The translations under genes and the position numbers were made by a program. Shown here piece by piece: positions 2,152 to 28,919 of a stretch of DNA of 64,000 nt (positions are counted from its first letter, which is position 1; the number at the start of each line of letters is the position of its first letter). The DNA lies in NCBI GenBank assembly GCA_948144175.1, contig CANXME010001453.1, positions 1,922,001 through 1,986,000 of the forward strand, given 5' to 3'. The notes beneath the pieces are model-generated. The model searched no databases. It saw only the letters and a program-made list of their open reading frames with translations, and was not told where the DNA came from. The stretch is from Closterium sp. NIES-65 (taxonomy: Eukaryota; Streptophyta; Zygnematophyceae; Desmidiales; Closteriaceae).

Positions 2152-2528
2152 TGCCAGTAGAGCTACACTGTGAGATCCCCGATCGATCCTAGGGGGGGTT
2201 ACAGGCGCGTTTGCCTGGGGGGTTATGAGCGCACTGGCCCGCTACTGAAACAAGCCCTTTTATCCCAATGGTCTAGTGGTTGGGATTCTGACATGGTATC
2301 AGAGCGGTCTCGAGTTCGAATCCCGGTGTATGCACATGTAGGCCGTTGCCACTGTGCTCAGTCCTGGGCCTCCCAGTGTGGGGGGGTGTCAGTAGAGTTA
2401 CACTGTGAGATCCCCGATCGATCCTAGGGGGGGTTACAGGCGCGTTTGCTTGGGGGGTTATGGGCGCACTGGCCCGCTACTGAAACAAGCCTTTTTATCC
2501 CAATGGTCTAGTGGTTGGGATTCTGACA
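2152..2528 (+). mobile_element. TRIM copy 1: miniature LTR element with tRNA-like module
   Basis: A 377-bp element with two 142-bp LTRs (2152-2293 and 2387-2528), which start TGCCAG or TGTCAG and end TTCTGACA. It is flanked by a perfect 5-bp TSD, GTAAC (2147-2151 and 2529-2533). The 93-bp internal domain starts with the primer site TGGTATCAGAGC (2294-2305), identical to the usual initiator-Met tRNA complement of plant LTR elements, and ends with a polypurine tract GTGTGGGGGGG. It has no coding capacity. Size and structure fit a terminal-repeat retrotransposon in miniature (TRIM), which moves using proteins from other elements. It sits in the RT of copia Z. Confidence 0.92.
2269..2323 (+). promoter_or_regulatory. 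tRNA-like internal pol III promoter in TRIM copy 1
   Basis: The A box TGGTCTAGTGG (2269-2279) fits TRGYNNARNNG exactly and lies in the 5' LTR end. The B box AGTTCGAATCC (2313-2323) has one mismatch to GGTTCGANNCC and lies in the internal domain. The primer site falls between the two. The A-box half resembles the 5' half of a tRNA-Glu. Promoter activity is inferred. Confidence 0.55.
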
Positions 2529-2945
2529 GTAACCACTGAATGTTATAAAGACCAAGTCATCGATGTAGACGAGAACGAAGAAAGGTGTGGGCCCAAAACG
2601 GACGAACAACGGCTGGTCTGCGGATGAACAACGAAACTCAAGGGTAGCAAGAGTGGTGCGCATCGTGTCGTGCCACTCATGGGGCGCCTGGCAGACCATA
2701 GACTGGTCGTCTTAGGCTCCACTGGGTTTCAGGCAGGAAAGTGCTAGTGAAGCCAGGAGGACGACGCAACCAGATCTCTTTGTGCAGGCTGCCCTGGAGA
2801 AAGGTAGTGGAGAAGTCGAGGGAGTACAGCTCGTAGTCTTGCTGTGCTGCAACGTAGAGTAACACCCAAAGAGTCGTCATCTTCAGGGTCAGGGCGAAAA
2901 TATGGAAGAAGTTAACTCTCTCACGTTGGTTGAAACATCAGGGCA

Positions 2946-3419
2946 TCAAGGCTCGGTCAGGGGAAAGGAGCATGGCACAGAGAGAGAGAGAGAAGCGGCT
3001 GCCAAGAACTCCAGCTCAAACTGCTTGTCCTCTAGGACATCACAGGTAAGGGCAAACTCACCCCCGGCGGACAGACGACGGGCTGGCGGAGCAGCCACTA
3101 CACGCGTGGAAAATTCAAGGCGGCGGGTGGCAGCAAAGTCAGCAAAGCGGCAGTAAGAGCCGAGACAGACGACGGAGAGGGTCGGTGACAAGAGAGGCGA
3201 GAACACGCGAGACAACATGACGAGCAGCACGGTAGTAGTCAGTGATAGGGTGAGAGGAGACAGTGAGAGATGACGTAGGAGGTGGCGGGAGAAGAGACAC
3301 AAGCGGAGCACGACAAGAACTAGAACGAAACAAGGCAGCCCCCTCTGCAGACAGTGCGCCCCGTAGACCGTGCGCTCCGCAGGTTTCGCGTCCCACAGGT
3401 AGTGCGCCCTGCAGTTATC
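2946..3419 (-). pseudogene. Copia Z pre-RT segment
   Basis: Minus-strand sequence encodes the conserved stretch upstream of copia RT, including ALTCDVLEDKQFELEFLAAAS, which is similar to VLEDRQFELGFLAAA of element R at about 58050. Further upstream (3330-3419) the sequence is a GC-rich tandem repeat of CGCAGG/GTAGCGCGCCC type. Copia A inserted within this repeat, which continues at 22818. Confidence 0.7.
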
Positions 3420-3552
3420 TGTCAAACATATATAATATAGCCTGTGTAGGCTGTAGTGGGGTAGACATTATGGGGTACAGCTTTTCTAGGTTTTCATACT
3501 TGTACCCATCTCCTTTCTAGTCACACATTCCATTCCTCATACTTTTCTCACA
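3420..3552 (+). repeat. Copia A 5' LTR
   Basis: Starts TGTCAAACATATATAA and ends CTTTTCTCACA. It contains the block GTGTAGGCTGTAGTGGGGTA, which recurs in the LTRs of copia C, K and Q and marks a shared LTR lineage. Confidence 0.9.
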
Positions 3553-3570
3553 TGGTATAGAGCGGGTTCC
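3553..3570 (+). promoter_or_regulatory. Copia A primer-binding site
   Basis: TGGTATAGAGCGGG follows the 5' LTR directly. It matches the initiator-Met primer site TGGTATCAGAGC with one base missing. Confidence 0.7.
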
Positions 3571-3599
3571 CTAGTGGGACCGTTTTTTTTTTAGGGCCA

Positions 3600-4320
3600 C
3601 CACTTAATTTGTTTTTTTCTGCCCTGCCCGAAGGGCGCATCGCGCTCTGCCTTACTGCCGCCGTCGCGGCCCTACCCTCTAGGCCCGTCGCGCCCTTAGC
3701 GGCCCGCCTTGCTGTCGCGGCCCTTAGCGGCCCGCCCTGTCGCCCTTAGCGGCCCGCCCTGCCGCCCTTAACGGCCCGTCGCCGCCCTGGTGCGAACCGC
3801 CCTGCCGCCCTTAGCGGCCCGTCGCGGCCCTCAGCGGCCCTTAGAGGCCCGCCCGCCTCGTCGTCGCGGCAATGCGCGGCCCGCCTGCCCGTCGTCGCGG
3901 CCCTCCACGGCCCGCCCGCCTCGTCGTCGCGGCCCTACCCTACCCTGCCGCGGTCCTGCCTTGTCGCGGACCTGCACTGCAGTAGCCGCTTGGCTCCTGA
4001 CCGGCCCTGTCGCCTCGTGGCGACCCCCTGCACTGCAGCCACGTCGCGGCCCCTGCCCTGCCAGACGCGGCCTTGCTCCTGCAGCCGTGTCGCTGCCCAA
4101 CTTGTCGCGGCCCCTGTCCCGCCTGCGCGCCCCGGCCCTGCCCCACCAGTTGCGGCCCTTCCACCGCTCCCGCTCCTGGTAAGCACACCGCCGCGCCCGC
4201 GCCGCACTGCCGAGCTGCGCTGCCCTGCCGAGTCGCGCCGCCCTGCCGAGACGCGCCGCCGTGGAGAGTCGCGCTGCTACTACTAATGCTGCTGCTAGCA
4301 CTTCTGCTGCTGTTCGTGCT
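3600..4320 (+). repeat. Copia A GC-rich leader repeats
   Basis: Untranslated leader between primer site and gag, built from variants of CCCTTAGCGGCCCGCC and CGTCGCGGCCCT. The overlapping open frames rich in Arg, Pro and Ala on both strands are by-products of base composition and contain no domain. Confidence 0.7.
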
Positions 4321-4323
4321 ATC

Positions 4324-5478
4324 ATGACTACCCCGAATGTACTTACCTTCGATACTGAGGGTCGAGCGGTTGACTTTGAGGTCTGGGTCTATGATCTGCA
4401 GCTGTTTCTGTAGTGCAATTCTAGGGACGGAGTCTCACTGTTCGATCTCATGTCCGGCGTCTCTGTTGCACCTGCTGCCAATGCTCACTGTGCTGTTCGC
4501 TCGCAACAGACCAAGCGCGATGCTGCTGCCCGACTTGCTGTTCGTAGTCACCTGCCGTCTGCTGAGCGCGCGCACTTTGGCCAATACAAGACCGCTAGGA
4601 CTCTGTACGACGCTGTTGTTGCGCGCTACTCTTCCCCTGCCACTGCTGCCCTTAGCTGCCTCACGCTGTCGTACCTGTTCCCTGACATAGCTGCTTTTGC
4701 CACAGTCGCTGACCTCATTACGCACCTCCGCACTAGTGACACCCGCTACCAAACTGCGCTTCCTGCCAAGTTCTGCGCCAAGAACCCCCCCCCCCCCTAT
4801 GTACATCACTCTCTACTACCTCGTCACCCGGCTCCTTGACTCCCTTCGCTTGGTCAGGGACCACTTCCTCTCCCTTTGCCCCACCACGCTCACCGTTGAC
4901 CTCCTTGAGGAGCGCCTCCTTGCAGCTGACAAGAGTATAATCGCTGTAGGAGCCTCTCGTGGTGACCCTCGTGCCTCTTTCTTTGAGGGGTGCTCCCTCG
5001 TTCCCCTTTTGCCTTCTGTTGCCTCTGCTACTGCTGTCGACCTCGTTGGCAACGAGTCGGTCGACGCTGCGTCTGCTCCTAGTGGGAGGCGCCACAGCGG
5101 CAAGAGCAAGGGGGGAGGTGGGGGTGGTGGCGGAGTGGGGGCTTCGGTAGCGGAGGTGGGGGTGGAGGCGGCGGCGGCAGCGGCAGTGGAGGTGGCGGTG
5201 GTGCTGGTCAAAGTGGCGCTATGCAGCGTGGAGGCTTTGGTGGTGGCCACCGCCAGCAGAAGCAGCGTTCTCGTGAGACCCTGTCGCCCCAGGAGCTTCG
5301 TGAGTGGTACGCTGGGCGTGGGAGGTCTGGGGGTGCTGGTCCCTGGGCTTACATTCTCCGCACCGTCGAGCGCAGTGGGGAGACGTGCGGAGGGCCGCAC
5401 GCCACGCAGCGCTGTCTTGGTCGTCTGACTGACGCCTGGCGTACAAAATTTCCTGATGGCACTGAGATCCCGCGCTAG
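4324..5478 (+). pseudogene. Copia A Gag
   Basis: Starts with ATG at 4324 (MTTPNVLTFD...FEVWV) and corresponds closely to the gag of copia C. Conserved blocks include AARLAVRSHLPSAERAHFGQ, YKTARTLYDAVVARYSS, DLITHLRTSDTRY and a C-terminal LREWY...RLTDAWRTKFPDG. Gag would form the virus-like particle. A TAG stop lies near 4411 and a poly-C slip at about 4788-4796 breaks the frame before MYITLYY; the Gly-rich tract (5100-5215) shifts it again. The Cys/His element near the C-terminus (TCGGPHATQRC) is not a canonical CCHC knuckle. Confidence 0.85.
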
Positions 5479-6326
5479 GGTGATCTGCTTAAGTCGGGGG
5501 TTGCTGTCTTTGATCTTGATTATGATGCTATCCTTGCTGCTATGTATGCTGTGTCTATTAGTGCTGAGGGTGACTGTTACCTGTGTGTTCCGCCCGACCC
5601 GGGCATTGAGGCTGCTGCTCTAGGTGCTGGTCAGTCTGCTGCCCCAGGTACTGGTGAGTCTGCTCTCTAAGGTACCGCGTCGGCTCAGGCCTTACACACC
5701 TTCACCCTTGACTCGGGTGCTCCCCACTCCTCCTTTCGCAACTGCACCACACTCTTGCCGCTCAGTCGGCCAGTGGCAGTCTCTCTGGCTGACCCCTCCG
5801 GGGGTCCGGTCCTTGCACACTCCTCCACGGTCCTGCCGTGTCCGGCGGTCCCGTCTGGCTCTCTGTCTGGCCTCAACCTCCCCTCATTCTCCACGACCTT
5901 GGTGAGTGGAGCTGACCTTCAGGACGCGTGGGTTGAACAGTTCACTCCTGGAGATCAAAGAGTGACCCACTGTTCGTGTACTCGGAGAGGCCGGCACCTG
6001 GCCACGTTCACCTGTCAGCCTGGGTCGAGCCTGTACACCCTGACTACCGTGTCTCCTCCGGTTGCTGAGTTTGGTCAGGTAGCTGCGTCGGGTCATGTGT
6101 TTGCTGCAGCGTCCCGGTCTAGTCCAGGGTGTGCCCCCTCCTCGTGTCGCCTCCTGTCTCACCAGACTCTCCTTGGGCACCACCGCCTTGGTCACCACTC
6201 CCTGCCTCGTCTCTTAGGCATGGCCTCCCGTGTCCTTGTTACTTGTCTTCCCCGGTCTCTCCCTCCCCTACCCCCCGGGCCTGCCCCTACCTGCGTTCCT
6301 TGCGTCGAGGGGCGGCAGCGCGCTGC
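5479..6326 (+). pseudogene. Copia A protease and GAG-pre-integrase, cut by gypsy B
   Basis: Encodes FDLDYDAILAAMYA, then a retroviral-type aspartic protease with LDSGA at about 5710, then HHRLGHHSLPRLL and CVPCVEGRQRAA of the integrase zinc-binding region. The coding sequence stops at the gypsy B TSD GCTGC (6322-6326) and resumes at 18271. At least one stop (TCTCTAAGG, about 5670) breaks the frame. Confidence 0.85.
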
Positions 6327-6714
6327 TGTGAGAGTACGACAGCTTATGCCAGCTATGCTTGCTTGCCTCTACTTTATCATGCTATTTCTAGCATAGGATA
6401 ATCATATGCATGCATGAATTGCTTGATTTCCTAGGCTAGGTGCTTTCCTATATTTTATTATAGTTATAGCACCGAGCTAGGTTACGTGCACCGAATTCTG
6501 GCTTTTCGGTTGCCACCGAATTGCCTTCTACCGAATTCGGTAAGGATCCGTTCGGGACGCTACGCGGCCCGCGGAACCTTCGCGTAACACCTGGTTACGG
6601 GGTTTTGTGTCGAGCCTATATATAGCCTCGTGTTGTACCCAGGTGGACATTCAATTCAATTCAATTCGACTCAATTCTCATTCTCTTTTCTGAACTCAAT
6701 CCTAGATCCTCACA
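6327..6714 (+). repeat. Gypsy B 5' LTR
   Basis: A 388-bp LTR. A TATATATAG box lies at about 6618-6626, and TTCAATTCAATTCAATTC microrepeats lie near 6648-6666. It pairs with 17883-18270. Confidence 0.93.
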
Positions 6715-6715
6715 C

Positions 6716-6729
6716 TTGGTAATCAGAGC
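6716..6729 (+). promoter_or_regulatory. Gypsy B primer-binding site
   Basis: TTGGTAATCAGAGC lies one base after the LTR. It resembles the initiator-Met site TGGTATCAGAGC with an additional A. Confidence 0.6.
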
Positions 6730-7143
6730 GGATTTACACGCGAGGTCTTCAACCGCTTAGTTCCGGCCTTTAAAAACGGTGGGGGCGACGACGAAAGCGC
6801 CGATACGGGTATGTAAAACCAGTTCTGCGCAATTTTCTAAGTCCTCCTCGATTCGGTTTTCGAACACCCCTCAGATTTACTGGTGGAAAGGTTGGAGTTT
6901 TGACCGTTCGATCGAGTTTCATCTCAACGGCCCAGAGAATATCGCCCAAAAAAGTTGGAATCTGGAGCGTCGGATCAATTTTCTCCTCAACGGCCAAGAT
7001 CGGACGCGAATTTCGCCTAAGGGAGATTTACGCAACCTACAGAATTCGCGCTCGTCGATTCTACAGTCAATTTGACTCGCAGTAAGTCGACCAGCACCTA
7101 GAATTCGATTATTTTCGTCGCGCATCTTCCTGTAAATCACCAA

Positions 7144-8101
7144 ATGGAGGGCCAAGGCGACAACTACGCGACTACGTGCGACATTGCGAGCCTCCGCACC
7201 GACATGGAGCAGACGCAGGCGACGCTTCGTCGACTCGAGGCTTTTCTGACAAGCCAACCAGGGTTCGCCACCGCAGCAGCAGCGACCACAGCGGCTGCAG
7301 CACCGACATCTAAAGGCAGCAGTGGCGACACCGACATTTCACGGACCAATGGCACCACTGTCGCCGAACCTCGAAGCAGCACGACCGAGGCTCCCGGAGG
7401 CGTTCGATCCAAGCGCGAAGGGATCCGACGTCCGGCGATTCATGGCCACCCTCGAAATTTACTTCGAGGCCATTAGCTGTTCGACCCCGCAACACGACGC
7501 AGCAAGGATTCGGCTCGTAGCGACACTGTTACGTGGACCGGCTCTCGAATGGATTTACTACACCGACGTAGCCTGCGGGGAGAAAACGTGGCAGCAGTTT
7601 CGGGCAGATTTAATCGAGCGTTTCGAACCAATTAATACAACCTACATGGCGCGGCAGCAGATACACCGACACAAGCAATACAGTAGTGTAACACAGTACA
7701 CGCAGCAGATGGAGTTACTGTTCAACCGCATCACCGACCTGACCGAAGGCGAAAAAATCCAGGCGTACACCGAAGGATTAAAAATGGAGATTCGGCGGCA
7801 GGTGATTGCGGCGAATTACAACAGCTACAGAGACATCGTGCGTGCTGCCGAGCGATACGACGCGCTGACTCGAAGTCAACCCGAAACACGACGCTTCACG
7901 CCGAACCGTACATTCGGCACGGAGCGATCGGCACCCCCCACGTTCACCGAACCGATGGATATCGACAAATACGACGCGAAGCAGCAGCCGACAAAATGCG
8001 AATTTTGCGGCGTAGCAGGACATCAGTTTTTGTCGTGCTACAAAATGAAGAAAGCACGTGCGGCACTCCGGGACGGAAACAGTGGAGCACCCCCGAATTA
8101 A
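7144..8101 (+). pseudogene. Gypsy B Gag
   Basis: ATG at 7144 opens a frame starting MEGQGDNYATT with a short coiled-coil-like stretch (DMEQTQATLRRLEAFL). The main retrotransposon Gag domain is in another frame (from about 7322), so one frameshift lies between. That frame holds the capsid-like core (FMATLEIYFEAI, EKTWQQFRADLIERFEP, YTQQMELLFNRITDL, YTEGLKMEIRRQV) and ends with a canonical CCHC zinc knuckle CEFCGVAGHQFLSC (about 7999-8040). The stop is at 8101. Confidence 0.85.
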
Positions 8102-8475
8102 AAAAACGGGAATCGCCAGTAGCCGCGGATCGACCTGGCGATCGCGTAAAGATCCGAAAAGCAGGAAAAGGCGACGACGTGGCGACTTCGGAGCAGGTGA
8201 AAAAAGGAGAAAATGATGGCGGGAATTTAAAACGTCACGACCGGCCGGCATCAGGGGAAATCGCCGAGGCGAATGGAGGCTCCGCGAAAAAAGACTCTGC
8301 ACCGACCAGGAAACTCCAGCCGAACACCCACGAAAGCAAGAATTTGTTAAAAGTATCCTAGAAAGATGCTCTAACGAAGAATATTGCTTCTCGTGGTTTA
8401 CAAGCCTTCAAAAAATTCAGGGGAGGTCTAGAGGCCAAGAAAAAGCCTTTAGAAATTATTCAGGTACCTGAGAAG
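8102..8475 (+). other. Gypsy B gag-pol spacer
   Basis: Lysine- and proline-rich open sequence between the Gag stop and the protease frame. No domain seen. Confidence 0.4.
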
Positions 8476-9504
8476 TTGGGCAAAATACTACGGAGCGTAG
8501 AGAAGGGTCGTGCGTTCCGTGGAGTTAATATTCTCTCCCCGCAGCACAGTATTAAGGCTCCCCGTCGCCCACAGGTGAAGCCTACACAGCTGCCAAGGCT
8601 TAGAGGAGACATCCAGGCTCAGGAAAAATTATACAAGCCTCGGAAAAATCCTCCTACCCCCCAGGTGAAGTTGGAAAGCGCAAAGTCAGGTATAGGAAAA
8701 AGGGAAGGTATTAAGTTCGATGTACCCTATGATCCTATTAACGAGACCCTCTTTGGCTACTCAGCACAGCAGAAACCACTACTCCTCGAGGTGTTATGCA
8801 ATGGGCGACGCCTCCAGGCACTGGTGGACAGCGGTGCATCTCACTCGGTGTGTGACTGCGGAGCATTGGAGAAAATTGGAGAGAAGGCGGAAGAGACCCA
8901 GTTTTCAGCAACCATGGTGGACGGTACGAAGCTTCCTATCCACGGCGAAGCATCACTGCAACTGCATATAGGTGCGTTGAGGTGGAAGCCGAAGCTACCA
9001 GTGACCAACATCAAAGGATTAGATTTTATCTTGGGGCGAGATTTCCTGAAGCAGTTCAACCCCGAGATCGATTGGGTCAACAGCAAGGTGTGCATCTACA
9101 ACAACGGGAAACGAGTGGAGCTGCGAAGATGGACGGATACAGGGGACATACCTGAAACGACACTGGCACGGTTCGAACAGACGGTGAACAAGAGTAACAC
9201 GGGTTACCTAGCACTGGTTATGGCAGCAGCAGAGGAGGAGAAGCCGAGTTCCGAGCTACCTGCAGCAGTGAAAGAGGTCTTGGAGCAGTTCAAGGATATA
9301 ATGCCCAACAACCTACCTGCAGGCGTACCTCCAACACGCACCCACGAGCACGAGATCGTGGAGGAACCAGGTGCGAAACCCGTCTCACGTGCACCATACC
9401 GACTGAGTCCGACTGAACTGACAGACATGAAAAAACATATAGAGGATCTACTGGACAGACAACTGATCCGCCCATCCACCTCTCCCTACGGCGCACCAGT
9501 TTAA
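8476..9504 (+). pseudogene. Gypsy B protease and RT N-terminus
   Basis: A 342-residue frame. The aspartic protease has catalytic LVDSGASHS (about 8822) and the downstream ILGRDFL motif (about 9030). The RT N-terminal region follows: THEHEIVEEPGAKPVSRAPYRLSP and IRPSTSPYGAPV. The frame stops at TAA (9502-9504), exactly where the family continues into [19 protein letters not shown] in the same frame, so a single nonsense codon separates the halves. Confidence 0.88.
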
Positions 9505-10347
9505 TTCACTCCAAAACCAGACGGCAGTCTACGGATGTGCATCGACTACCGCGCACTGAACAAACGGACAGTCAAAAACAAATATCCCATACCGCGCATA
9601 GACGACCTACTCGATCAACTGCGTGGAGCAACAGTATTTGCGAAGCTGGACCTACGATTGGGCTACTGGCAGATCAAGATGGCAGACAACTCCGTCCACA
9701 AAACAGCGTTCCGTACCAGATACGACTCCTATGAATACTTGGTGATGCCGTTCGGACTCTGCAACGCACCAGCAACATTTCAGGTGGAGATGAATCACAT
9801 CTTACGACCCCTGCTAGACGAGTGCGTGGTGGTGTACCTGGACGACATTCTCATCTACTCCAAGAATATGAAGGAGCACGTGGAGCATCTGCGGAAGGTG
9901 TTCGAGATAGTCATAAACTACCCCATTCACGACAAGGAAGCCTTAGCGATAGTCATAGCCTTCAAGGCGTGGAGGTGTTACCTAGAGGGAGCCAAGACTA
10001 CAGTCTATACTGACCATTGCAGTCTCAAATAACTGAAGTCACAGCCGACACTCTCACGACGACAGGTGCGGTGGGTTGACTTCCTGGAAACTCACTTCCA
10101 TTACGACATCGTCTACAAGCCCGGGCTACACAACAAGGCAGACGCGTTGAGCCGCCCCGGACATGTAGCAGGCATCCAGCTCGACGGGATGAACCCTCTG
10201 CTCAAGGGTCTATTCCAACATGGGTACTCCGTGGACGCAGAGATTGCTACAGCACAGACCAAGAAGCTATTACAGTGGGAGAAAGACTTAGCTATAAGGA
10301 AGGGTTCAGGAAAGATTTGGGTACCGAATTACGCCCCGCTACGGTAG
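9505..10347 (+). pseudogene. Gypsy B RT and RNase H with internal deletion
   Basis: The RT continues with [40 protein letters not shown] and the catalytic [11 protein letters not shown] (about 9832). After HLRKVFEIV (about 9908) the sequence jumps to [15 protein letters not shown] and VYTDHCSLK, which belong to RNase H. The RT thumb and the start of RNase H are missing (my estimate is 100-150 residues from the family layout). The segment then runs through the linker IVYKPGLHNKADALSR to a TAG at 10345-10347. The enzyme would not be functional. Confidence 0.85.
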
Positions 10348-10944
10348 ATCCTATTGGAGGAGTTTCACGACGTACCTTACGCGGGACATTTTGGGAGCAA
10401 CAAGACGTTAGCAGGGATAGCGAAGTATTACTACTGGCCCGGGATGGGAGCAGACGTGCAGCAGTTCGTCACCTCTTGCAACACGTGCCAGCGGATGAAG
10501 AGCAGCAAGCAGAAAAAAGCAGGGTTACTTCAGCCTCTACCCGTACCGGAGCAGCCATGGCAGGTCGTTAGCCTCGACTTCGTCACAGGGCTTCCTTCGA
10601 CCTCACGAGGACATGATTCCATCCTCGTGGTGATCGATAAGTTCTCCAAAATGGGTCACTTCATACAGACCAACGCCACAGCTACAACTGAAGCAACAGC
10701 TCGACTCTTCTTCGACCGCATCATCACCATCCACGGCATCCCCGCTACACTCATCTCAGACAGAGACCCCAAATTCACGAGTAAGTTTTGGAAGGAGCTC
10801 ATGGGACTGTTGGGGACAAAGCTTGCAATGTCTTCAGCATACCACCCCCAGACTGACGGACAGACAGAGCGACTCAATCAAGTGGTTGAACAGTTACTGC
10901 GCACAGCTTGCAAGGACGACGTGAGCCACTGGGACACACAAATA
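10348..10944 (+). pseudogene. Gypsy B integrase, truncated by copia C
   Basis: Contains the zinc-binding HDVPYAGHFG...CNTCQRMK region (H-H-C-C) and the catalytic core VVSLDFVTGLP (D), ATLISDRDPKF (D) and SSAYHPQTDGQTERLNQ (E). It runs to HWDTQIP at about 10944, where GC-rich copia C leader sequence begins. The remaining integrase C-terminus up to the chromodomain (17689) is absent, so a deletion accompanied or followed the insertion of copia C. Confidence 0.87.
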
Positions 10945-11231
10945 CCGCCCGTCCCGGCCCCTCGACGCCAGCGCGCCGCCGTCCCGGCCCCTAGCCGCCC
11001 GCTGGCCGCCCGTCCCGGCCCCTCGACGCCCGCTGGCCGCCCGTCCCGGCCCCTCGACGCCCGCGCGCCGCCGCCCCGGCCCTTAGCCGCCCGTTGGCCG
11101 CCCGTCCCGGCCTCTCGACGCCCGCGCGCAGCCCGTCCAGGCCCCTGATCGCCCGTGCGCCGCTCGTCCCAGCCACGGGCCGCCCTGTGTCGCTGACAGC
11201 CCGAGCCGCCCGAGCCGCCCGCGCCGCCCGA

Positions 11232-11283
<52 letters not shown>

Positions 11284-17882: not shown

Positions 17883-18270
17883 TGTGAGAGTACGACGGCT
17901 TATGCCAGCTATGCTTGCTTGCCTCTACTTTATCATGCTATTTCTAGCATAGGATAATCATATGCATGCATGAATTGCTTGATTTCCTAGGCTAGGTGCT
18001 TTCCTATATTTTTTTATAGTTATAGCACCGAGCTAGGTTACGTGCACCGAATTCTGGCTTTTTGGTTGCCACCGAATTGCCTTCTACCGAATTCGGTAAG
18101 GATCCGTTCGGGACGCTACGCGGCCCGCGGAACCTTCGCGTAACACCTGGTTACGGGGCCTTGTGTCAAGCCTATATATAGCCTTGTGTTGTACCCAGGT
18201 GGACATTCAATTCAATTCAATTCGACTCAATTCTCATTCTCTTTTCTCAACTCGATCCTAGATCCTCACA
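17883..18270 (+). repeat. Gypsy B 3' LTR
   Basis: A 388-bp copy preceded by the polypurine tract GAGGGGGGGACG. It is followed by TSD GCTGC and the continuation of the copia A integrase. Confidence 0.93.
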
Positions 18271-19060: not shown

Positions 19061-20340
19061 CTCTCCCTCGCGCCAGGTCCTTCCCCGGTGTACCCCCTCC
19101 CCCCTCAGGGTCTTGCCCCCTCAGGTGTGTCCCAGGTAGACGTTGTTGAGCCTATCGAGGTAGCTGTTGACTCTGGTGCTGCTAGGGGTGCTGAGCCTGC
19201 GGGTGCCGGGTCTGGGGGTGCTGAGCCTGAGCGTGTGGAGCCTGGGGGTGCTGAGTCTGGGGGTGCTGAGCCTAGGGGTCCTAAGTCTGGGGGTGCTGAG
19301 CCTAGGGGTCCTAAGTCTGGGGGTGCTGAGCCTGGGGTTGCTGAGTCTGGGGGTGCGGAGCCTGAAGGTGCTGAGCTTGGAGGTCCTTCGGGTCCTTCGT
19401 CCCGTCGGGAGCCGCTCTCTCCACAGCACCTGCGTGAGTGGTTTGCTAGGCGCTGAAGCCGTGCTGCTGGAGTTGGTGGTGCTGCAAGAGCTAGGAGTCT
19501 TGCTGCTGCTGGAGCTAGTGGGGGGTCTGGAGGTGCTCGTACTAGAGGTACTGGAGCTGCTGGGCCTGGTGGTGGTGCTGGAGCTAGCGGAGCTACTGGG
19601 GGTGCTGTTGGTGCAGGTGGTACTGGAGGTTCTGACCTAAGCGCTACTGGTGCTGCTGGGGCTTCTGGTGGTCCTACTGGAGCTGGAGCTGCTCGAGGTG
19701 CTGTAGGTGGAGGTGGTGCTGGAGCCGGTGCTCCTCTGGGTTCTGGAGTTGGCCCTACTAAAGCTGCTGGAGGTGTTGCTGGAGCTGGTGGTGCTGCTGG
19801 AGTGGGAGCTGGCGCTGGGGGTGCTGGTGTTGTCCCTGCTAGTTCTGGAGGTGTTGCACGGTAGCGGCCGTACTTCGTTCCGCTCCTTCAGCAGGTTCTT
19901 GGTCTCCCGCTTTCTACTGGTCCTGCTCCTTCCTTAGAGTGTCCACTGCTTGTCCAGTCGCAGTCACAGTTACAGCCCGCCTCCCCACTGCCTGCTCCTT
20001 CTCCTTACACTGGTCCGACAGGAGGTCTTACGGAGCGTCGTGAGCCTGAGTCTCGTCCTGCGTCGCCTGTTCGTGCTGCTCGCACTAGTCGTCAGGGTTC
20101 GCGTCAGCGTCCTCCTCCTGTCCCTGGCACGCACCAGATTGCTGTACGTCCTTCCACCGATTCGCAGCGCATCCCTCTGCCATCTCCTCCTTTCTCTTCT
20201 CTTCCTGCCCTTGCTGACCCGTAGTCTGACTCCCTTCGTGCTGCTAGTCTTACTATCACGCGTCTCCTAGCCAGTGTTGTCACTGACCCTTCCTTTGAGT
20301 CCACTGTTGCGTCTGCTCTTGTTGCTGCGCTTGTCAACTT
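19061..20340 (+). repeat. Copia A repeat linker between integrase and RT
   Basis: Pentapeptide repeats of GGAEP/GGAES type run from about 19180 to 19390 and include an exact 30-bp tandem duplication (GGTGCTGAGCCTAGGGGTCC type, about 19262-19321). LREWFARR follows, then an Ala/Gly-rich stretch in shifted frames (19450-19870) and the Ser/Pro-rich pre-RT region. Long open frames here on both strands are repeat by-products. Confidence 0.75.
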
Positions 20341-21304
20341 TGCTGCTCGCTGTCGTCTAGACTACGCCGCTAGTCTTGTTGCTGAGTAAGAGACTGTCTG
20401 TCCTCCGTCCGTCGAGGGTGAGTGTGCTCTTAGCACGGACGTCCTTGAGGACAGGCAGGAGAAGTTCCACTGTTTTGCAGCTACTTTACCTCATCTCGTG
20501 TCTACGCTGATTGCCCCTGAGGGAGACCCGGATGCACCAGACATCCCGACCCCACGCTCTTACGCAGAGGCGAAAGAGGGTCCCTACTCCTCTCAGTGGC
20601 AGACATCCATGGACGCAGAGATGGCTTCCTGGAAGTCCATTGGCACCTACGTCGGCGAGGTTCCCCCACCTGGTGCGAACATTGTCCATGGCATGTGTAT
20701 TTTCAGGGTGAAGCGGCTGCCGGGTTCTCCGCGTGTCTTCAAGGCGCGTTACGTGGCTCGAGGATTCAGTCAGCGGCAGAGAGTTGACTACTTTCAGACA
20801 TTCTCTCCGACCCCAAAGATGACCACTCTTCGGGTACTGCTGCTCGTCGCTGCTCAACGTGACTACGAGCTTCACTCTCTTGACTTCAGCACAGCCTTCT
20901 TGCAGGGCAGCCTGCACGAGGAGATCTGGCTGCGCCGCCCACCTGGCTTCACTGGGTCATTTCCTCCTGGTACCCAGTGGAGCCTCCGACGGCCAGTCTA
21001 CGGTCTTTTCCAGGCGCCCTGTGATTGGCACGACACACTGAGGACTACGCTTGCGGCTCTTGGGTTTGCTCCTTTCACTGCTGACCCGTCGCTGTTTCTG
21101 CGCACCGACACTTCGCTGCTGCCGTTTTACATCCTCGTGTACGTTGACGACTTGGTCTTTGCCACTGCTGACACTGAGGGACTCGTCCACGTGAAGTCGG
21201 AGCTGCAGAAGAGACACACTTGCATACACCTGGGTGAACTGCGCAGCTATCTTGGCTTGCACATCACCTGGGACAGAACAGGGCGCACCATTACCTTGAC
21301 TTAG
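20341..21304 (+). pseudogene. Copia A reverse transcriptase
   Basis: Pre-RT and RT are in one frame from about 20498 (DAPDIPTPRSYAEAKEGPYS) to a TAG at 21302-21304. RT blocks are FKARYVARGFSQRQ, LHSLDFSTAFLQGSLHEEIW and the catalytic LVYVDDLVFA (about 21140). The stop replaces a Gln codon in the conserved TITLTQSH context. An upstream TAA lies near 20389. Confidence 0.88.
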
Positions 21305-22086
21305 TCACGCATGGTGCAGCAGGTCCTTTAGCGCTTCAACTTCACGTACTCCTCGCCTCAGGCCACTCCTCTGTCTACTCGCCACTCGCTCTCGGCTCTG
21401 CCTTTGGATGATTCCATAGAGCCGAGTGGCCCATACCCTGAGCTTGTTGGCTGCCTCATATATCTGATGACCTGCACTCCACCTGAATTGGCATACCCTC
21501 TTAGCATCCTGGCACGCTATGTTGCTCCTGGGAGACACCGACCAGAGCACATGGATGCAGCTAAGAGGGTGTTGCGCTACATGTGCAGTACGTCGGGCAT
21601 GGGGCTCGTGCTTGGAGGACGAGCTCGAGTTGTCCTCACTGGTCACGCGGACGCTTCCTGGGTTGACAACTTGGCTACGCAGCGGTCGCCACAAGGTTAC
21701 ACCTTTAGCCTTGGTTCCGACTCTATTTCGTGGCGGTCTACTCGCTCATCCTCTGTTCTCAGCTCCGGTTGTGAGGCTGAGATCTACGCAGGGGCCATGG
21801 CTGCACAGGTGTTACGCTGGCTCACCTACCTGCTGCCAGTTCTGTACGTCGACAACAAGGCCATGCTGGCTTTGTGTCAGGAGCATAGACTGGAGCATTG
21901 AACGAAACACATTGCTCTGCGCTACTTCCTTGCTCGAGAGTTGCAACAGCGTAGTCAGCTTTGTCTTGCTTACGTGGCCACTCGGGCCAACATTGCTAAT
22001 ATCTTTACCAAAACACTTCAGCCTTGTGATCATCTGCGTTTTTATGCTATGCTAGGTCTTGTGCCCACTTGGCCACACTTGCTTAC
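21305..22086 (+). pseudogene. Copia A RNase H
   Basis: Encodes PYPELVGCLIYLMTCT, LTGHADASWVDN, SSGCEAEIYAGAMAAQV, YVDNKAMLALCQE and, after a stop (TGA, 21899-21901), AYVATRANIANIFTKTL. A short deletion removes the sequence between TYLL and PVLYVDN that copia C retains. 3' untranslated sequence follows to the LTR at 22327. Confidence 0.85.
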
Positions 22087-22326
22087 TTCTTTACTTTGCT
22101 TGTACTGTGATTTATATAGACCTGCACCTGCATGCTTACCCTTGCTAGGTTGAGATCATTTTCTTGCTTGTTCACCTTGATATATAACTCTGCATGTGAA
22201 CTGGCCTTGTGGCCTTGTGCTTGTGCTGAGAATGCGTGGTGACGTTGTGATCCACCGTGAGCTTGCCTTGCTTTGCTTGACTGGTCTTGTGACCTCTTGT
22301 TTTCCCCCACTTTGCCTACGGGGGTG

Positions 22327-22459
22327 CGTCAAACATATATGATATAGCCCGTGTAGGCTGTAGTGGGGTAGACATTATGGGGTACAGCTTTTCTAGGTTT
22401 TCATACTTGTACCCATCCCCTTTCTAGTCACACATTCCATTCCTCATACTTTTCTCACA
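22327..22459 (+). repeat. Copia A 3' LTR
   Basis: 133 bp; the first base is C in place of T. It is followed by TSD TGATC. It differs from the 5' LTR at about four sites. Confidence 0.9.
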
Positions 22460-22465
22460 TGATCA

Positions 22466-22812
22466 TGTCAGAGGTCCACTGGTGATCCCCGATCGATCCT
22501 AGGGAAGGGTTACAGGCACGATTGCCTGGGGGGTTATGGGCGCACTGACCCGCTACTGAAACAAGCCCTTTTATCCCAATGGTCTAGTGGTTGGGATTCT
22601 GAGATGGTATCAGAGCGAAGGTCTCGGGTTCGAATCCCGGTGTATGCACTTCGGGCATCCCAGTGCGGGGGGGTGTCAGAGGTCCACTGGTGATCCCCGA
22701 TCGATCCTAGGGAAGGGTTACAGGCACATTTGCCTGGGGGGTTATGGGCGCACTGACCCGCTACTGAAACAAGCCCTTTTATCCCAATGGTCTAGTGGTT
22801 GGAATTCTGAGA
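22466..22812 (+). mobile_element. TRIM copy 2
   Basis: A 347-bp element with two 139-bp LTRs (22466-22604 and 22674-22812), starting TGTCAGAGGTCC and ending TTCTGAGA, flanked by perfect TSD GATCA (22461-22465, 22813-22817). The 69-bp internal domain begins with TGGTATCAGAGC (22605-22616) and ends GTGCGGGGGGG. It inserted at the junction of copia A and copia Z. Non-coding. Confidence 0.93.
22580..22637 (+). promoter_or_regulatory. tRNA-like internal pol III promoter in TRIM copy 2
   Basis: A box TGGTCTAGTGG (22580-22590) and a perfect B box GGTTCGAATCC (22627-22637) lie in the order and near the spacing of a tRNA gene, separated by the LTR end and the primer site. TCTGA and TCAGA flank a 7-nt loop, imitating an anticodon arm. 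Confidence 0.6.
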
Positions 22813-22817
22813 GATCA

Positions 22818-23489
22818 CGCCCCATAGATAGCGCACCTAGCAGGTAACGCACCCCCCAGGTATCATGCCCCGCAGGTAGCGCGCCCCGCGGGTAGCGTGC
22901 CCCGCAGGCAGCGCACCGCGCGGGTAGCGCGCCCTGCAGCTCTTTAGCGCCACAATATGAATTGATTTATTGTACCCAAAAGAAAGAAGTCCAGGGTGAG
23001 GGGCTGCAACAATTGCCCGCGTTCCTGCCTACTAGACAGCCTCCACAGCTGCCTCCATAGCGCAGGCATCTGTACTGCAGCTCCTATTGCCGTAGGTAAC
23101 TTCCACTGCCAGTTGCTCTACTAGCGACAACCGACAGCCGCACTTACAGTCTCTAGCTCCATCCGTTCCTACCTCAAGCCGACCCTAAGTCCCCGTCTCT
23201 AGCTCCAGCCATTTGTGCTTTAGCTATTCTAGCTCCCGCCGATTATAGCTCTAGCCTAGCGTACCTTGTCACTCCTCGCTCCAGCCACTCCTTGTGCCAT
23301 CCATTCCTAGCCTGGCAGTCCTAGCTGATCCTACCTCCACCAAATCCTAGCTCCAGCCGTTCCTAGCTCTAGCCACTCTTGGTCTAGCAGCTCCTAGCGC
23401 CAGCTGTTCTTAACTCCAGCCACTCCTGCTCCAGCAGCTCCTAACTTCAGCTGTTCCTAGCTCCAGCTACTCCTGCTCCAGCAGCTTTT
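22818..23489 (-). pseudogene. Copia Z linker remnant
   Basis: Continues the GC-rich repeat interrupted at 3419 (CGCCCCGCAGGTAGCGCG units, 22818-22940). It then becomes CTCCAGC/CTCCTAG-rich sequence which, read on the minus strand, is an Ala/Gly/Val-rich linker like those of the other copia elements. No open frame remains. It ends at about 23489 against plus-strand element S. Confidence 0.55.
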
Positions 23490-24136
23490 CACTCATTGGT
23501 GGGCAGCCTCATGTATGCGGCGGTCAACATACGACCGGACACCGCCTTTGCTACCGGGCAGCTGGCTAGGGTTTTGCAATGCCCAAATGAGGAGCAGCTG
23601 GAATGAGGGTGGCCAAGTATCTTGGCCAAACACAGACCGTTGGGCTGCAATACTCGGCGGCGGCGCAAAGGCGCCAAAAGGGCACGGATGGTGTAGAACC
23701 CGGGCGTTTGTTCCTCACCACCTACTCGGATGCTTCATATGTATCGGAACCAGAGGACATGACAAGTGTGGGAGGCTTCATAAGCTGTGTTGGTGGAGGC
23801 CCAACTACTTGGGAGAGCAAGAAGCATGTTGATCAAGCATTGAGCTCGGTGGAGTCCGAGTACATGGCACTTTTCCGTGCCGTACGGGAGATTGTGTGGC
23901 AGCGGCGTTTGTTGGCTAAATTGGGGGAGGAGCAGCAAGGAACTACCCCACTCTACTGTAATAGCCAGGGTGCCATTGCTCTTGCTAAAAACCCCGTACT
24001 ACATGGCCTCACCAAGCACATGAGGGTGAAGTGGCATTGGACGAGGAGCATGGTGGCCGTGGGTGAAGTTGAGTTGCGCTATGTGAAGACGACGGGGCAG
24101 CCGGCAGACATGATGACCAAGAGGCTGGTGGAGTAG
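23490..24136 (+). pseudogene. Copia S RNase H and Pol C-terminus
   Basis: A different copia lineage from A/C/Z. It encodes LVGSLMYAAVNIRPDTAFAT, then after a frame change LTTYSDASYVSEPEDMTSVGGF, SSVESEYMALFRAVREIVW, LYCNSQGAIALAKNP and RYVKTTGQPADMMTKRLVE with a stop at 24136. RNase H Asp and Glu positions are visible. The element is 5'-truncated at its junction with copia Z. Confidence 0.85.
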
Positions 24137-24237
24137 CAGCATTGGGACTGCTGCAAGCTGGCTGGTGCAACCCTACGGTTGCACTGAGAGCAACAATCCA
24201 AGAGCAACAGATCCCGCCAACAATCCGAGGGGGGGTT

Positions 24238-24788
24238 TGTTGGTGCAACCCTACGGTTTGCACTCGGCTTGTTGTCCGTGTGCGTGCATGCATGTGTGCA
24301 TGGAATGGTATGAGGGAATGAGATAATATACATTTCATGCTTCTAAAAGTGTGTGTATGATGAGGCATGATGACGAATGTGTGTGTCGAGTCAATAGCGA
24401 GTTATCGCTAGTAGTGTGTCACGCGCTCGTTTGTGTCCCGTGCGCAGTTTCTATTTTGTCGTGTGTCTTGTGCGCGGATATTGTTTTGTCGTGTGTGTGG
24501 AACCTTCAGCGTGTTGCAGGTGTGTGCAGCAGACCCATCAAGAGCTCAAGGATGAGTTTATGATGAAGAACCAGAGCCTTGGTTTCAAGATTCAAGTGAT
24601 CACGAAGCTCGCGAAAAGAGTACACCTCAAGATATTGAGAATAGTTACATTACCTTGTGTAGTGTAACATTTCACTTGGTGTAGGCCCTTGTGAAGGGTA
24701 ATTTCGAGACCCTTCGTGGTTGGGGACAGTGTGGCATTGTTCCACATCACTGTACCTTGGCTCTTGGGGTTTGTAGGAGCTGGAAGTC
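24238..24788 (+). repeat. Copia S 3' LTR (part)
   Basis: Starts TGTTGGTGCAACCC right after the polypurine tract CGAGGGGGGGTT. A related TGGTGCAACCCTACGG block also occurs at 24160-24175. The LTR is interrupted by gypsy G at 24789 and must continue after 29961. Its end could not be placed because no second copy is in the window. Confidence 0.65.
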
Positions 24789-25122
24789 CATAAGAAAAAT
24801 TCATTTTCCTTACTTCGCGTCCCCGCTCAGCGCGTACACCACTGTAGCACCACAGTCAGCACCGTTACCACTCGCAACCCTCGCATCGACAATCCTCCCG
24901 CCACCTTTGCACGTCGCACCCCGGCTCGGTAGGTAACCCGCGCTCCGGGCCTCCGCTTCGACAATTCCCCAAACCTCAGTCCCAGGCCCGTCGCGCGACA
25001 ACCACAGTTCATTACCGTTACCAGTGTAGTTTCGCTATATATTCTTTGCTAATGCCTTCGCTCATTGTACTCTTGCTTCGATAGTGCAATTCTCGCTCGT
25101 TCCCTCAATTGCACTCGTAACA
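24789..25122 (+). repeat. Gypsy G 5' LTR
   Basis: Ends CACTCGTAACA. Its first two bases are CA where the 3' copy has TG. A TATATATTC box lies at about 25034-25042. Confidence 0.92.
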
Positions 25123-25137
25123 TTTGGTATTCAGAGC
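25123..25137 (+). promoter_or_regulatory. Gypsy G primer-binding site
   Basis: TTTGGTATTCAGAGC directly follows the LTR. It is an initiator-Met-like site with one extra T. Confidence 0.65.
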
Positions 25138-25304
25138 CTACGATCTCTTCTCAGACCGCACCCTCACCTTCGCTTCCCCACTATCTCAATTTTTGGGGGG
25201 GCTAGACGTCTCTCAGCGACACAACACCGCCGCTCGTCGTGCTCTCTCGTAAGCACGCACGGCCACGACAGAGGCTCTCGCTGAGCTCGCCCGACACCCC
25301 CGCC

Positions 25305-26432
25305 ATGGCCAAATTCACGCTCGCGACATTGACGCAGGAGCAGCTTGACCGTCCCGTGCGTCAACTCGAGGACTCGGCACTCGAAATCGCGACACTCACG
25401 GCGGAACGTGACTCCGCCCGCCAGCAATCAACGGTGAATGCACCAGCTCCATCACAAGCACCCGCAAATGCACCTGCACAATCAGACGAACCGATCGTCA
25501 TCTCATCAGGCACACTGACGCATAACGACAGCGTGGGACAACGCTCAGGCGCAGCCAGTGATGGCGCCGCTCAATTGATGCCTGGCATGGAGAGAAATCG
25601 GGCCGCGCCAAGCCCGCGTGGGCCTCGCGAAGCTCGTCGACACGTGGAGTTTGTAGCAACAAGTGGCAACCACGACATCATGGCACCAATGCCACTCAAG
25701 CCGCAGCGCCCGCCCTGTCTCGATCCAAGCCAACGTGGAGGTCTGATGGTTCAATCGTGGGTTTTCACGATGAACGTTTTCTTCGACGCGAATTACGTCG
25801 AGTCGGACGCAGCGAAGATTCGCTACGCTGTTTCGCTGCTGGGGGGCCCCGCCATGGACTGGTGGCGAGTCATCGTGACGTCGCCACGCGCCTACGAGCC
25901 ACCGTCGCAAGAGGAAGGGCCCACGGGTCCAGCCGTCACCTGGGGGCTTCGGGCGCACTTCGAGTCAATCGCGACTTTTATTTCAGCGCGTCAGAAACTG
26001 CGTACTTGGTGGCAGCTCGGGTTGGTTCAAGACTACACGAGTGGTTTTCTCGCATTATGCGAGCAAGTCAGCTAGATGCACGAAGCGGAGCGGGTGGACC
26101 GTTACGTCGGAGGGCTGAAGCCGGATATCTCGCACGAGATCATGCTACGCGGGCTCTCAAACTTCAACGAGATTCTCGCGCTCGCCGAGAAAATCGAAAT
26201 TTTGCGCCGTCTGAGACCGGGGTCCTACTACGGACATCGTCCTCGGGGACCGATCGAGCACGCCACCGTACACGCCGTTGCGACAAATGCAGCTACCGCA
26301 CCGTTTAAGGGGCGCTACTTTGCTTGCAATAGGCCGGGCCATCGCAAGAGTGAATGCCCAGAGGAGCTGAGGCGCCGCGGAGCAGAGCAGGGGAGGGAGT
26401 CTCCAAGGCAAGGAAACACCAGCAGTCAGTAG
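25305..26432 (+). pseudogene. Gypsy G Gag
   Basis: ATG at 25305 opens MAKFTLATLTQEQLDRPVRQ with a short coiled-coil-like helix, a Pro/Ala-rich spacer and the capsid domain (VQSWVFTMNVFFDANYV, YAVSLLGGPAMDWWR, TWGLRAHFESIATFISARQ, RYVGGLKPDISHEIM). A TAG at 26073-26075 interrupts the same frame. The zinc knuckle reads YFACNRPGHRKSEC, so its first Cys is Tyr. The frame ends at 26432. Confidence 0.88.
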
Positions 26433-26527
26433 GAATCGGGCCAACTACAGACGAGACTGCCTGCTCGCACAATCACACCGACCCTCACTGAGTCACGGCA
26501 CCGATTCATGCTATTGATCGGGCTCGG

Positions 26528-27040
26528 ATGAATAAGGAGGGTACAGCGACGGATTACCCAGTACTGATTCACGGGAAAATACAGGGAGCAGTAGTGAAGA
26601 TTTTTATCGACGGAGGAGCAAGTCACAGTTTAGTAAATACCGCAACCGCACGAAAACCGCAACTGACACTTAGCCGTTGTTTACCTAAGATAGACGCACG
26701 CTTAGTTGACGGCACGCCACAGGCCATACGTGAGAGGGTGGAGAGAGTCAAAGTCCGCTGCGGGGGAAATTTCAGATTTACACAGAAAATGCTCGCGACG
26801 ACACTGGATGGACACGACATTTTAGTGGGACGTGATTTGCTACGACGGTATAACCCACGAATCGACTGGACAACGGGTAGATGCACTGTGCGAAGTAGCG
26901 GTAATTGGGTTAAGCTATCTCGCTTGCAGTCGCGTGAGTCTTCAACGGTACACGTCAACGCCATCACGATGAAACAGGCTGTCACTGCTGGAGCTCACGT
27001 GTACGCACTGGATATAGCATTGGTAGGAGAAGCAGAGTAG
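26528..27040 (+). pseudogene. Gypsy G protease
   Basis: Encodes VKIFIDGGASHSLVNT; the catalytic D-S/T-G-A is D-G-G-A. ILVGRDLLRRYNPRIDW follows downstream. It stops at 27040, where related elements continue into RT. Confidence 0.83.
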
Positions 27041-27061
27041 CCGAGCGATTTTCAGAAACTG

Positions 27062-27608
27062 TTGGCAGCGGTACCACGCAAACTACAGGAACCGTTGAAA
27101 CGGTACCCGGGAATTTTTCCCGACGACATACGAGAAGGACTGCCACCTCAGCGGGCACATGACCACCGCATAGAGTTAGAACCGGGGGCACAGCAAACTG
27201 TACAGCGACAATTCCAACTGACACAGCCAGAGCTCGACGAACTGAGGAAGCAGTTAGATTACCTGTTAGAGAAATTCATCCGACCAAGCTCATCACCGTT
27301 CGCCGCACCGATACTATTCACACCGAAAAAAGACGGGGTTTTTCGCATGTGTATTGACTACAGAGCACTGAATAGGGTAACACTCAAATCGCGATACCCC
27401 ATTCCCCGCGCCGACGAGCTGATACATCAACTACGAACAGCACGAGTCTTTTTTCGAAAATTGACTTACGCGGAGGCTACTACCAGATTCGGGTCGAACC
27501 ATCGGACTGCGTAAAAACAGCATTTAGAAATAGGTATGGGTCATTCGAGTACACCGTGATGCCATTCGGGCTGACCAACACACCGGCGACTTTTCAGATG
27601 ACCATGAA
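27062..27608 (+). pseudogene. Gypsy G reverse transcriptase, truncated
   Basis: RT N-terminal blocks: [65 protein letters not shown]. After a frameshift near 27455 come [17 protein letters not shown] and [15 protein letters not shown]. The sequence then jumps, before the catalytic YxDD, to RNase H-linker sequence. The active site is lost. Confidence 0.85.
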
Positions 27609-28574
27609 CAGTACGGACAGACCATAAATCTCTACAGTATCTCCGCGCATAGCCACACCTCAACCCACGACAGATTCACTGGCTCGGTTTTCTCGAGTCC
27701 AACTTTCACTACACGGTCACTTACAAAAAAGGAGCCTCGAACATTGCCGACGCGCTGACCCGCCCCACTGCCCAGATCCACGCAATACTGCTCGCCCAGA
27801 CAAGCCCACTACTGACAGGCCTATTTACCCACGGGTACCAAACGGATACATTCTTTACAGGAGGAAATTCGCGGCAGTTTGCAGCAGCAAAGGGAGTCTA
27901 TTACATAAAGACCGGGACCGACCGCATATGGGTGCCTGGGCATACACTACTACGAGAATTACTATTATAGGAGGCACACAACGGAGTTACCTTGGGGCAT
28001 TTCGGGGTAGAGAAAACACGGCAGCAGTTGCAGCGGTACTATTACTGGCCCGAAATGTTGACCGACGTACAATGACACGTGGCATCGTGTCCCACTTGCC
28101 AGCTCATGAAATCATCACGACAGCGGCCGGCGGACAGTTGCAGCCGATACCACCCCCAGAGCGTGCTTGGCAGCAAGTGACGATGGACTTTGTCACGGGG
28201 TACCGGCTGGAGCAAGTGGGAACAACGCGATCTTGGTCGTCGTCGATCGACTGACGAAAATGGCACACTTTGCAGCATGCAAGAAATCAATCATAGCCGA
28301 AGAAACAGCTCGCCTCTTCATCGCCACCATCGTTCGATTACACGGGATACCAGCAGCGATCATCAGCGACCGCGAGACGAAATTCACCAGCAACTTCAGG
28401 CGGAACCTGTGGCAGCAGTTCGGCATGCGACTGCAGTTTAGTTCATCATACCACCCCGAAACCGACAGACAGACAGAACGGACAAATCAGACCATGGAAC
28501 AGCTCATCCGGGCCACGTGCAACGACCCGACCACGTGGGAACAGCAACTGCCACTCATCGAGTTCGCGTACAGC
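27609..28574 (+). pseudogene. Gypsy G RNase H tail and integrase (first part)
   Basis: Joined fragments encode WLGFLESNFHYTVTYKKGAS (RNase H tail), VYYIKTGTDRIWVPGHTLL, VTLGHFGVEKTRQQL, YYWPEM and CPTCQLM (zinc region). The integrase core follows: GNNAILVVVDRLTKMAHFAA, GIPAAIISDRETKF (D) and SSYHPETDRQTERTNQ (E). Frames change several times. It breaks at FAYS, where TRIM3 inserted. Confidence 0.83.
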
Positions 28575-28919
28575 TGTCAGAATCCCAGCCACTAGACCAC
28601 TGGGATAAGAGGGCTTGTTAAGTAGCGGGTCAGTGTCCCCATAACCCCTTAGGTGAACGTGCTTGTAACCCTTCCCTAGGATCATTCGGGGATCACCTGT
28701 GGACCTCTGACACCCCCCCGCACTGGGATGCCCGAAGTGCATACACCGGGATTCGAACCCGAGACCTTCGCTCTGATACCATGTCAGAATCCCAACCACT
28801 AGACCACTGGGATAAAAGGGCTTGTTAAGTAGCGGGTCAGTGCGCCCATAACCCCCCAGGCCAACGTGCCTGTAACCCTTCCCTAGGATCATTCGGGGAT
28901 CACCAGTGGACCTCTGACA
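28575..28919 (-). mobile_element. TRIM copy 3
   Basis: A 345-bp minus-strand copy with 138-bp LTRs (28782-28919 is the 5' LTR and 28575-28712 the 3' LTR). The 69-bp internal domain has the primer site on the minus strand at 28770-28781. TSD ACAGC (28570-28574) and ACAAC (28920-28924) match at four of five bases. It splits the gypsy G integrase; the sequence continues directly at 28920. Confidence 0.92.
28749..28806 (-). promoter_or_regulatory. tRNA-like internal pol III promoter in TRIM copy 3
   Basis: On the minus strand the A box TGGTCTAGTGG occupies 28796-28806 and the B box GGTTCGAATCC occupies 28749-28759, both perfect. The same TCTGA...TCAGA pairing around the primer site is present. 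Confidence 0.6.

Follow-up and report, generated by a model that had tools for sequence, protein, structure and literature searches.

We describe here a family of very small retrotransposons in the zygnematophyte alga Closterium sp. NIES-65, starting from a stretch of 64,000 nucleotides of its genome (assembly GCA_948144175.1, contig CANXME010001453.1, positions 1,922,001 to 1,986,000 of the forward strand), hereafter "the window", whose coordinates are used throughout unless a contig or locus is named. The elements are terminal-repeat retrotransposons in miniature (TRIMs), in which promoter boxes like those of small-RNA genes (A and B, at tRNA-like spacing) lie on either side of the junction between the 5' long terminal repeat (LTR) and the internal domain. 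From this arrangement of motifs we think it moderately probable that the recently amplified element has a type-2 (tRNA-like) RNA polymerase III (pol III) promoter laid across that junction. LTR elements driven by pol III are known from Cassandra, and have been proposed for Helenus and Ajax. An element with an internal promoter faces an awkward problem, in that its two LTRs are identical and yet transcription has to begin in the first and end in the second; were the promoter split by the LTR border, the problem would have a direct answer.

Element anatomy and layout of the boxes

The three elements of the window (copies 1, 2 and 3) measure 377, 347 and 345 bp, with LTR pairs of 142/142, 139/139 and 138/138 bp and internal domains of 93, 69 and 69 bp. 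Their coordinates and general build are those given in the preliminary description of the sequence, which had recognised three TRIMs of 345-377 bp with paired LTRs of 138-142 bp, a primer site and a G-rich tract. In all three, the first bases of the internal domain, directly 3' of the 5' LTR, are the primer-binding site (PBS) TGGTATCAGAGC, a predicted match to the initiator methionine tRNA (tRNA-iMet). At its other end the internal domain terminates in GGGGGGG (the G7 tract) adjoining the 3' LTR, i.e. in the position of a polypurine tract (PPT), as which we propose it. The target-site duplications (TSDs) of 5 bp reported earlier are exact in copies 1 and 2, and agree at 4/5 positions in copy 3. 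All three copies have what distinguishes a TRIM: a non-coding element below 1000 bp with two LTRs, a PBS, a PPT and a TSD of fixed length. One correction concerns copy 2, whose LTRs terminate in GA and not in CA.

The features are as follows (coordinates, strand, description).

2152-2528, +: TRIM copy 1; LTRs 2152-2293 and 2387-2528; internal domain 93 bp; TSD GTAAC
2258-2261, +: copy 1, run of four T (T4) upstream of the A box in the 5' LTR, element position 107; proposed end of the R region
2269-2279, +: copy 1, A box TGGTCTAGTGG closing the 5' LTR; orphan A box in the 3' LTR at 2504-2514
2294-2305, +: copy 1, primer site TGGTATCAGAGC, directly after the LTR
2306-2326, +: copy 1, B box and T-arm-like segment, variant GAGTTCGAATCC
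2380-2386, +: copy 1, G7 tract, proposed PPT
2492-2496, +: copy 1, run of five T (T5) in the 3' LTR, element position 341; proposed terminator
22466-22812, +: TRIM copy 2; LTRs 22466-22604 and 22674-22812, ending in GA; internal domain 69 bp; TSD GATCA
22569-22572 (5' LTR) and 22777-22780 (3' LTR), +: copy 2, T4 runs, element positions 104 and 312
22580-22590, +: copy 2, A box; orphan A box in the 3' LTR at 22788-22798
22605-22616, +: copy 2, primer site TGGTATCAGAGC
22627-22637, +: copy 2, B box GGTTCGAATCC
22667-22673, +: copy 2, G7 tract, proposed PPT
28575-28919, -: TRIM copy 3; 5' LTR 28782-28919, 3' LTR 28575-28712, internal domain 28713-28781; TSD ACAGC/ACAAC
28796-28806, -: copy 3, A box in the 5' LTR; orphan A box in the 3' LTR at 28589-28599
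28770-28781, -: copy 3, primer site TGGTATCAGAGC
28749-28759, -: copy 3, B box GGTTCGAATCC

The A box TGGTCTAGTGG starts at 2269 (+), 22580 (+) and 28806 (-), and the B-box core GTTCGAATC begins 45, 48 and 48 nt downstream of this start in copies 1, 2 and 3, respectively. The full B box GGTTCGAATCC previously assigned to all three copies is present in copies 2 and 3, whereas copy 1 has GAGTTCGAATCC. We counted the layout in 37 distinct insertions, namely 36 fetched from the assembly (see below) and window copy 3. All 37 have TGGTCTAGTGG at the end of the 5' LTR and GTTCGANTCC behind the primer site, the distance from the A-box start being 45 nt in 7 copies and 48 nt in 30. The A box begins 25 nt before the LTR end and the B box 8-11 nt behind the primer site; the B box is internal, with only the A half within the LTR, in every insertion (37/37), and the 3' LTR has an A box without a B box. 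The split of the two boxes by the LTR/primer-site junction, as first noticed in the window, is thus a real property of the family.

T4 runs are confined to one place in each LTR, 7 nt ahead of the A box, and CAAGCC stands before the run (CAAGCC.TTTT) in 37/37. From the B box as far as the run of the 3' LTR, none of the 37 insertions has another T4, and the 3' run itself is present in 36 of them. Within the window, the TTTT said to precede the A box of the 3' LTR exists as T5 in copy 1 and as T4 in copy 2, but it is broken (TCTT) in copy 3.

How often would such a layout arise by chance? When the LTR and internal domain of one copy were put through 20,000 dinucleotide shuffles, 0.055% of the products had both a relaxed A box (last 40 nt before the primer site) and a relaxed B box (first 45 nt after it), in a test framed after the boxes had been seen. 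The same A/B geometry occurs at 0 of 124,444 other positions of the window, both strands included; since the three window copies belong to one family, their geometry counts as a single observation. Seven other PBS-like sites (at most one mismatch) in the window and in the fetched loci L001-L038 are without a strict B box, and two of them (in L021 and L036) have a relaxed B core, GATCGATCC, as read by eye; in the loci, sites with an A-box core, i.e. TRIM copies, were omitted from this comparison. The junction pattern and the PBS-to-B-box pattern each gave 0 matches in viral contigs, and the latter 0 in bacterial and archaeal contigs; in none of these collections would an algal element be expected. 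A scan for bacterial-type promoters and terminators returned nothing, a type of scan that is uninformative for this element.

Copies, age and conservation of the boxes

Two DNA searches of the organism's own assembly (874 Mb, 2400 contigs), in which the best 40 of 1893 and of 1010 candidates were scored, gave at least 41 and at least 44 matches. From these, 8 + 30 = 38 matched copies (L001-L038) were fetched, picked by similarity. Exact 5-bp TSDs are present in all 38; two pairs (L001/L002 and L018/L020) have common flanks, which leaves 36 insertions. The two LTRs are identical in 32/38 copies, the others (L001, L002, L009, L010, L015 and L030) differing at one to five positions. This identity indicates that the family was active very recently, and the assembly contains many near-identical copies of it. 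The sample is nevertheless biased, because the fetched copies were chosen by similarity and are young. Eight 10-kb stretches picked by coordinate were free of young copies and yielded a single old one, L069:2351-2607. This relative is strongly decayed (identity about 69-74%) and is evidence of a family older than its recent burst.

Three observations on individual copies may be added. The GA terminus of the copy 2 LTRs recurs in the fetched relatives of its subfamily for which the 5' LTR end was printed; as these GA-ending copies (copy 2; L009-L038) are young, the terminal CA seems dispensable for integration in this subfamily. On contig C43, two matches (1848398-1848774 and 1848633-1849009) overlap by one LTR length (142 bp), which reads, from the match coordinates alone, as a three-LTR tandem array. 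Finally, at L016:1090-1847 an element of the copy 1 type lies 34 bp upstream of one of the copy 2 type.

To what extent are the boxes under constraint? A divergent set of six copies (window copies 1-3, L016a, L021b and L036b), representing perhaps three or four subfamilies, gave the following numbers of variable columns: 18/60 for U3 positions 1-60, 6/43 for U3 61-103, 1/11 for the T4 run and the bases before A, 1/21 for the A segment, 1/4 for the LTR end, 1/12 for the PBS, 3/3 for the spacer, 4/21 for the B/T-arm segment and 0/7 for the next seven bases. The A segment alone varies less than U3 1-60 (p=0.018, uncorrected, six copies). In L021b, two changes in the T-arm stem retain 5/5 pairs and a third falls on a free B-box position. 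Altogether we regard constraint on the A and B boxes as suggestive and unproven.

Several facts indeed weigh against a promoter role. Over the six copies, A and B together (5/42 variable) are not significantly less variable than U3 (24/103; Fisher p=0.17), and the neighbouring U3 61-103 is conserved too. Window copy 1 has an altered B box and one broken T-arm pair, and L036b an altered A box; the copy L006, of the same subfamily as window copy 1, has GGG in its B box, so that the change to GAGTTCGAATCC looks private to the locus of window copy 1. In L069 both boxes are lost, with 11/21 and 8/21 positions changed, and they are at least as changed as its U3 (41/103, gaps counted); its primer site is altered as well, which makes it a decayed copy. 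The presence of the layout in 37/37 insertions is partly trivial, nearly all copies seen being young. A small number of T4 runs is nothing exceptional, given an average of 0.9 per element in shuffles, and the polymerase would have to read through the T4 run of the 5' LTR, which lies about 10 nt or less from the proposed start.

An alternative is an ordinary TRIM transcribed by RNA polymerase II (pol II), whose D-arm likeness would come from a captured piece of a tRNA or a short interspersed element (SINE), or from chance, and whose boxes would have no promoter role and be kept by youth. The near-identity of the copies, the six-copy test, the conserved upstream U3 and the decayed L069, which bears no sign of special constraint, all speak for it. 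We nevertheless consider this explanation unlikely, although it deserves to be taken seriously. The joint occurrence of both boxes, their tRNA spacing and the placement of the T4 runs is improbable in such an element, and TATAWA is absent from the 5' LTR, as is AATAAA from the element, in 37/37; algal pol II genes can do without either motif.

tRNA likeness and published families

The likeness to a tRNA is local. An 18-base D-arm segment of the 5' LTR differs at one position (1/18) from the D arm of tRNA-Glu, a general plant sequence serving as the reference. The preliminary description had proposed a tRNA-fold check, and its outcome was negative: neither ARAGORN nor Rfam at the gathering score recognised a tRNA in the window (0 matches each), and a functional tRNA is accordingly rejected. 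With a relaxed E-value, applied to copy 2 only, the best match of the clan was transfer-messenger RNA (tmRNA), with 8.5 bits for the T-arm only, two lower-scoring matches of the tmRNA clan being left out of this result. An RF00005 search of the organism's own genome, in which 63 of 18,457 candidates were scored and 30 fetched, gave two kinds of sequence only among the fetched ones; these look like organelle tRNAs, and no nuclear tRNA-Glu is among them.

In the lowest-energy folds of copies 1 and 2, ATCCCAA pairs with TTGGGAT in place of the D arm, while copy 3 folds otherwise; a 205-nt stretch of copy 2 has a folding z-score of only -1.41. Taken together with the lack of a match at tRNA cut-offs, these folds make the module look like a promoter rather than a tRNA. 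The imitation of an anticodon arm suggested earlier is found in so far as TCTGA pairs with TCAGA around a GATGGTA loop in copy 2, but the hairpin can equally be an ordinary one between the LTR end and the primer site, i.e. a U5-PBS hairpin. It may then be asked whether this and the other LTR-end hairpin are nothing but ordinary U5-PBS structure serving reverse transcription, with the likeness to tRNA arms as a by-product. The ATCCCAA/TTGGGAT pairing in copies 1 and 2 and the TCTGA/TCAGA pairing in copy 2 agree with this idea. On the other hand, it gives no reason for a B box and T-arm downstream of the primer site, copy 3 forms neither hairpin in its lowest-energy fold and the z-score of copy 2 is modest, so that we find it rather improbable.

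The statement that no TRIM with a tRNA-like promoter was known is outdated. Helenus, as described by Kojima 2024 (PMC10886601), comprises TRIMs of fungi, animals and Selaginella with tRNA-like A and B boxes in their LTRs; the name TRIMp3 is proposed there for pol III-type TRIMs, and their use of pol III is, according to the same text, not validated. Helenus is also mentioned in a 2026 meeting report (PMC12859917). The Closterium TRIM resembles Helenus in its tRNA-derived A/B boxes, short internal domain, PBS and PPT, in the 5-bp TSDs given there for plants and fungi and in the absence of a recognisable tRNA, most Helenus elements being not expected to encode a functional one. Its size is close to that of Helenus-1_SMo of Selaginella, the only plant host in that text (LTR 120 bp, internal domain 85 bp). 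In contrast, where Helenus is recognised by boxes A and B both inside the LTR, here A lies in the LTR, B is internal and the primer site stands between them, Helenus-1_SMo being compared by description only. The idea that such a split is simply the ordinary build of a plant-lineage Helenus-1_SMo, so that only the host is new, has on its side the similar sizes, 5-bp TSDs and streptophyte host, together with the absence of the Selaginella sequence from the main-text alignments, to judge from the figure legends (PMC10886601), and is very doubtful given an internal B box in 37/37 copies.

Other known elements are more distant. In Cassandra, 5S boxes A and C are both in each LTR (PMC7215508 and PMC10853983); it shares with the Closterium TRIM a non-coding TRIM build, a pol III-type promoter (here predicted), tandem arrays (here putative) and the primer site TGGTATCAGAGC at the border of the 5' LTR, and an 18-bp terminal redundancy is reported for its RNA (PMC10886601). 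Cassandra itself was rejected, there being no 5S match in the window (cmscan, Rfam gathering score), a search that a short 5S fragment could escape. Classical plant TRIMs and SMARTs, too, are non-coding LTR elements of very small size that have a PBS and a PPT (PMC4717578; SMART size in PMC10886601), and TRIMs are reported in three algae and Selaginella (Gao et al. 2016, PMC4717578); unlike the present element, they are described without pol III boxes, and the word "promoter" is absent from the accessible text of PMC4717578. The tRNA-derived SINEs have the same type-2 pol III boxes at tRNA-like spacing, but they are without LTRs, PBS and PPT and are mobilised by non-LTR retrotransposons (PMC10886601, same text). 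A SINE was rejected, given the LTRs and 5-bp TSDs, and the suggested class between TRIMs and SINEs is not borne out, because the anatomy is that of an LTR element.

A search of the open-licence literature, which leaves subscription papers mostly outside, found, among the papers listed, none on a tRNA-like promoter split by a primer site or on TRIMs of Closterium. To judge from the motifs, what is still unusual compared with published tRNA-type TRIMs is that the module is divided, its A half lying in the LTR and its B half in the internal domain. We would therefore speak of a probable new arrangement within tRNA-type TRIMs and not of a new class, since the idea of a tRNA-type TRIM promoter is already published.

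Proposed transcription and its meaning

If the split module is a pol III promoter, TFIIIC would find both boxes, and bind, only at the 5' end of the full element, the A box of the 3' LTR having no B box to go with it. The start would lie a short way ahead of the A box, perhaps at the CAA some 17 nt from it; the polymerase would run through the internal domain and the U3 of the 3' LTR and stop at the T4 run that precedes the orphan A box by 7 nt, giving an RNA with a terminal redundancy of about 10 nt. The tRNA-iMet would then prime at the primer site and the G-tract would prime the plus strand, while an autonomous element would supply the proteins in trans, with integration producing the 5-bp TSDs. 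The 3' LTR and solo LTRs, having no B box, would be silent.

An autonomous partner was not found in the window, where the other repeat pairs, compared by eye, do not begin or end their LTRs in the manner of the TRIM. One of these pairs, of 332 bp and 94.9% identical (24791-29956), surrounds TRIM copy 3 and probably represents the LTRs of one retroelement; copy 3 appears to be nested within an integrase-like reading frame (WEQQLPLIEFAYS), so identified by reading alone. Another pair, of 388 bp (6327-6714 and 17883-18270; 97.7% identical, about 11 kb apart), is LTR-like and flanks Copia- and Gypsy-like pieces. A fragment of a Copia reverse transcriptase from the window gave 5911 matches among 8000 scored candidates; at least 120 of these, the ones listed, carry names of Closterium species throughout, with 78-90% identity along the aligned part and varying coverage.

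In evolutionary terms, we can only tentatively propose that in a zygnematophyte TRIM lineage a pol III promoter came to be divided into two halves, one in the LTR and one internal, with the primer site replacing the anticodon. If this were true, the upstream LTR alone would be a promoter and the downstream LTR only a terminator, and the layout by itself would settle the problem of an internal pol III promoter and a terminator repeated in both LTRs. An origin through template switching to a tRNA-like RNA would be in keeping with the position of the junction, near the site at which tRNA halves are cut. With such a lineage, the range of tRNA-type TRIMs would come to include the algae that are sisters of land plants, and its abundant young copies make tests of expression practical.

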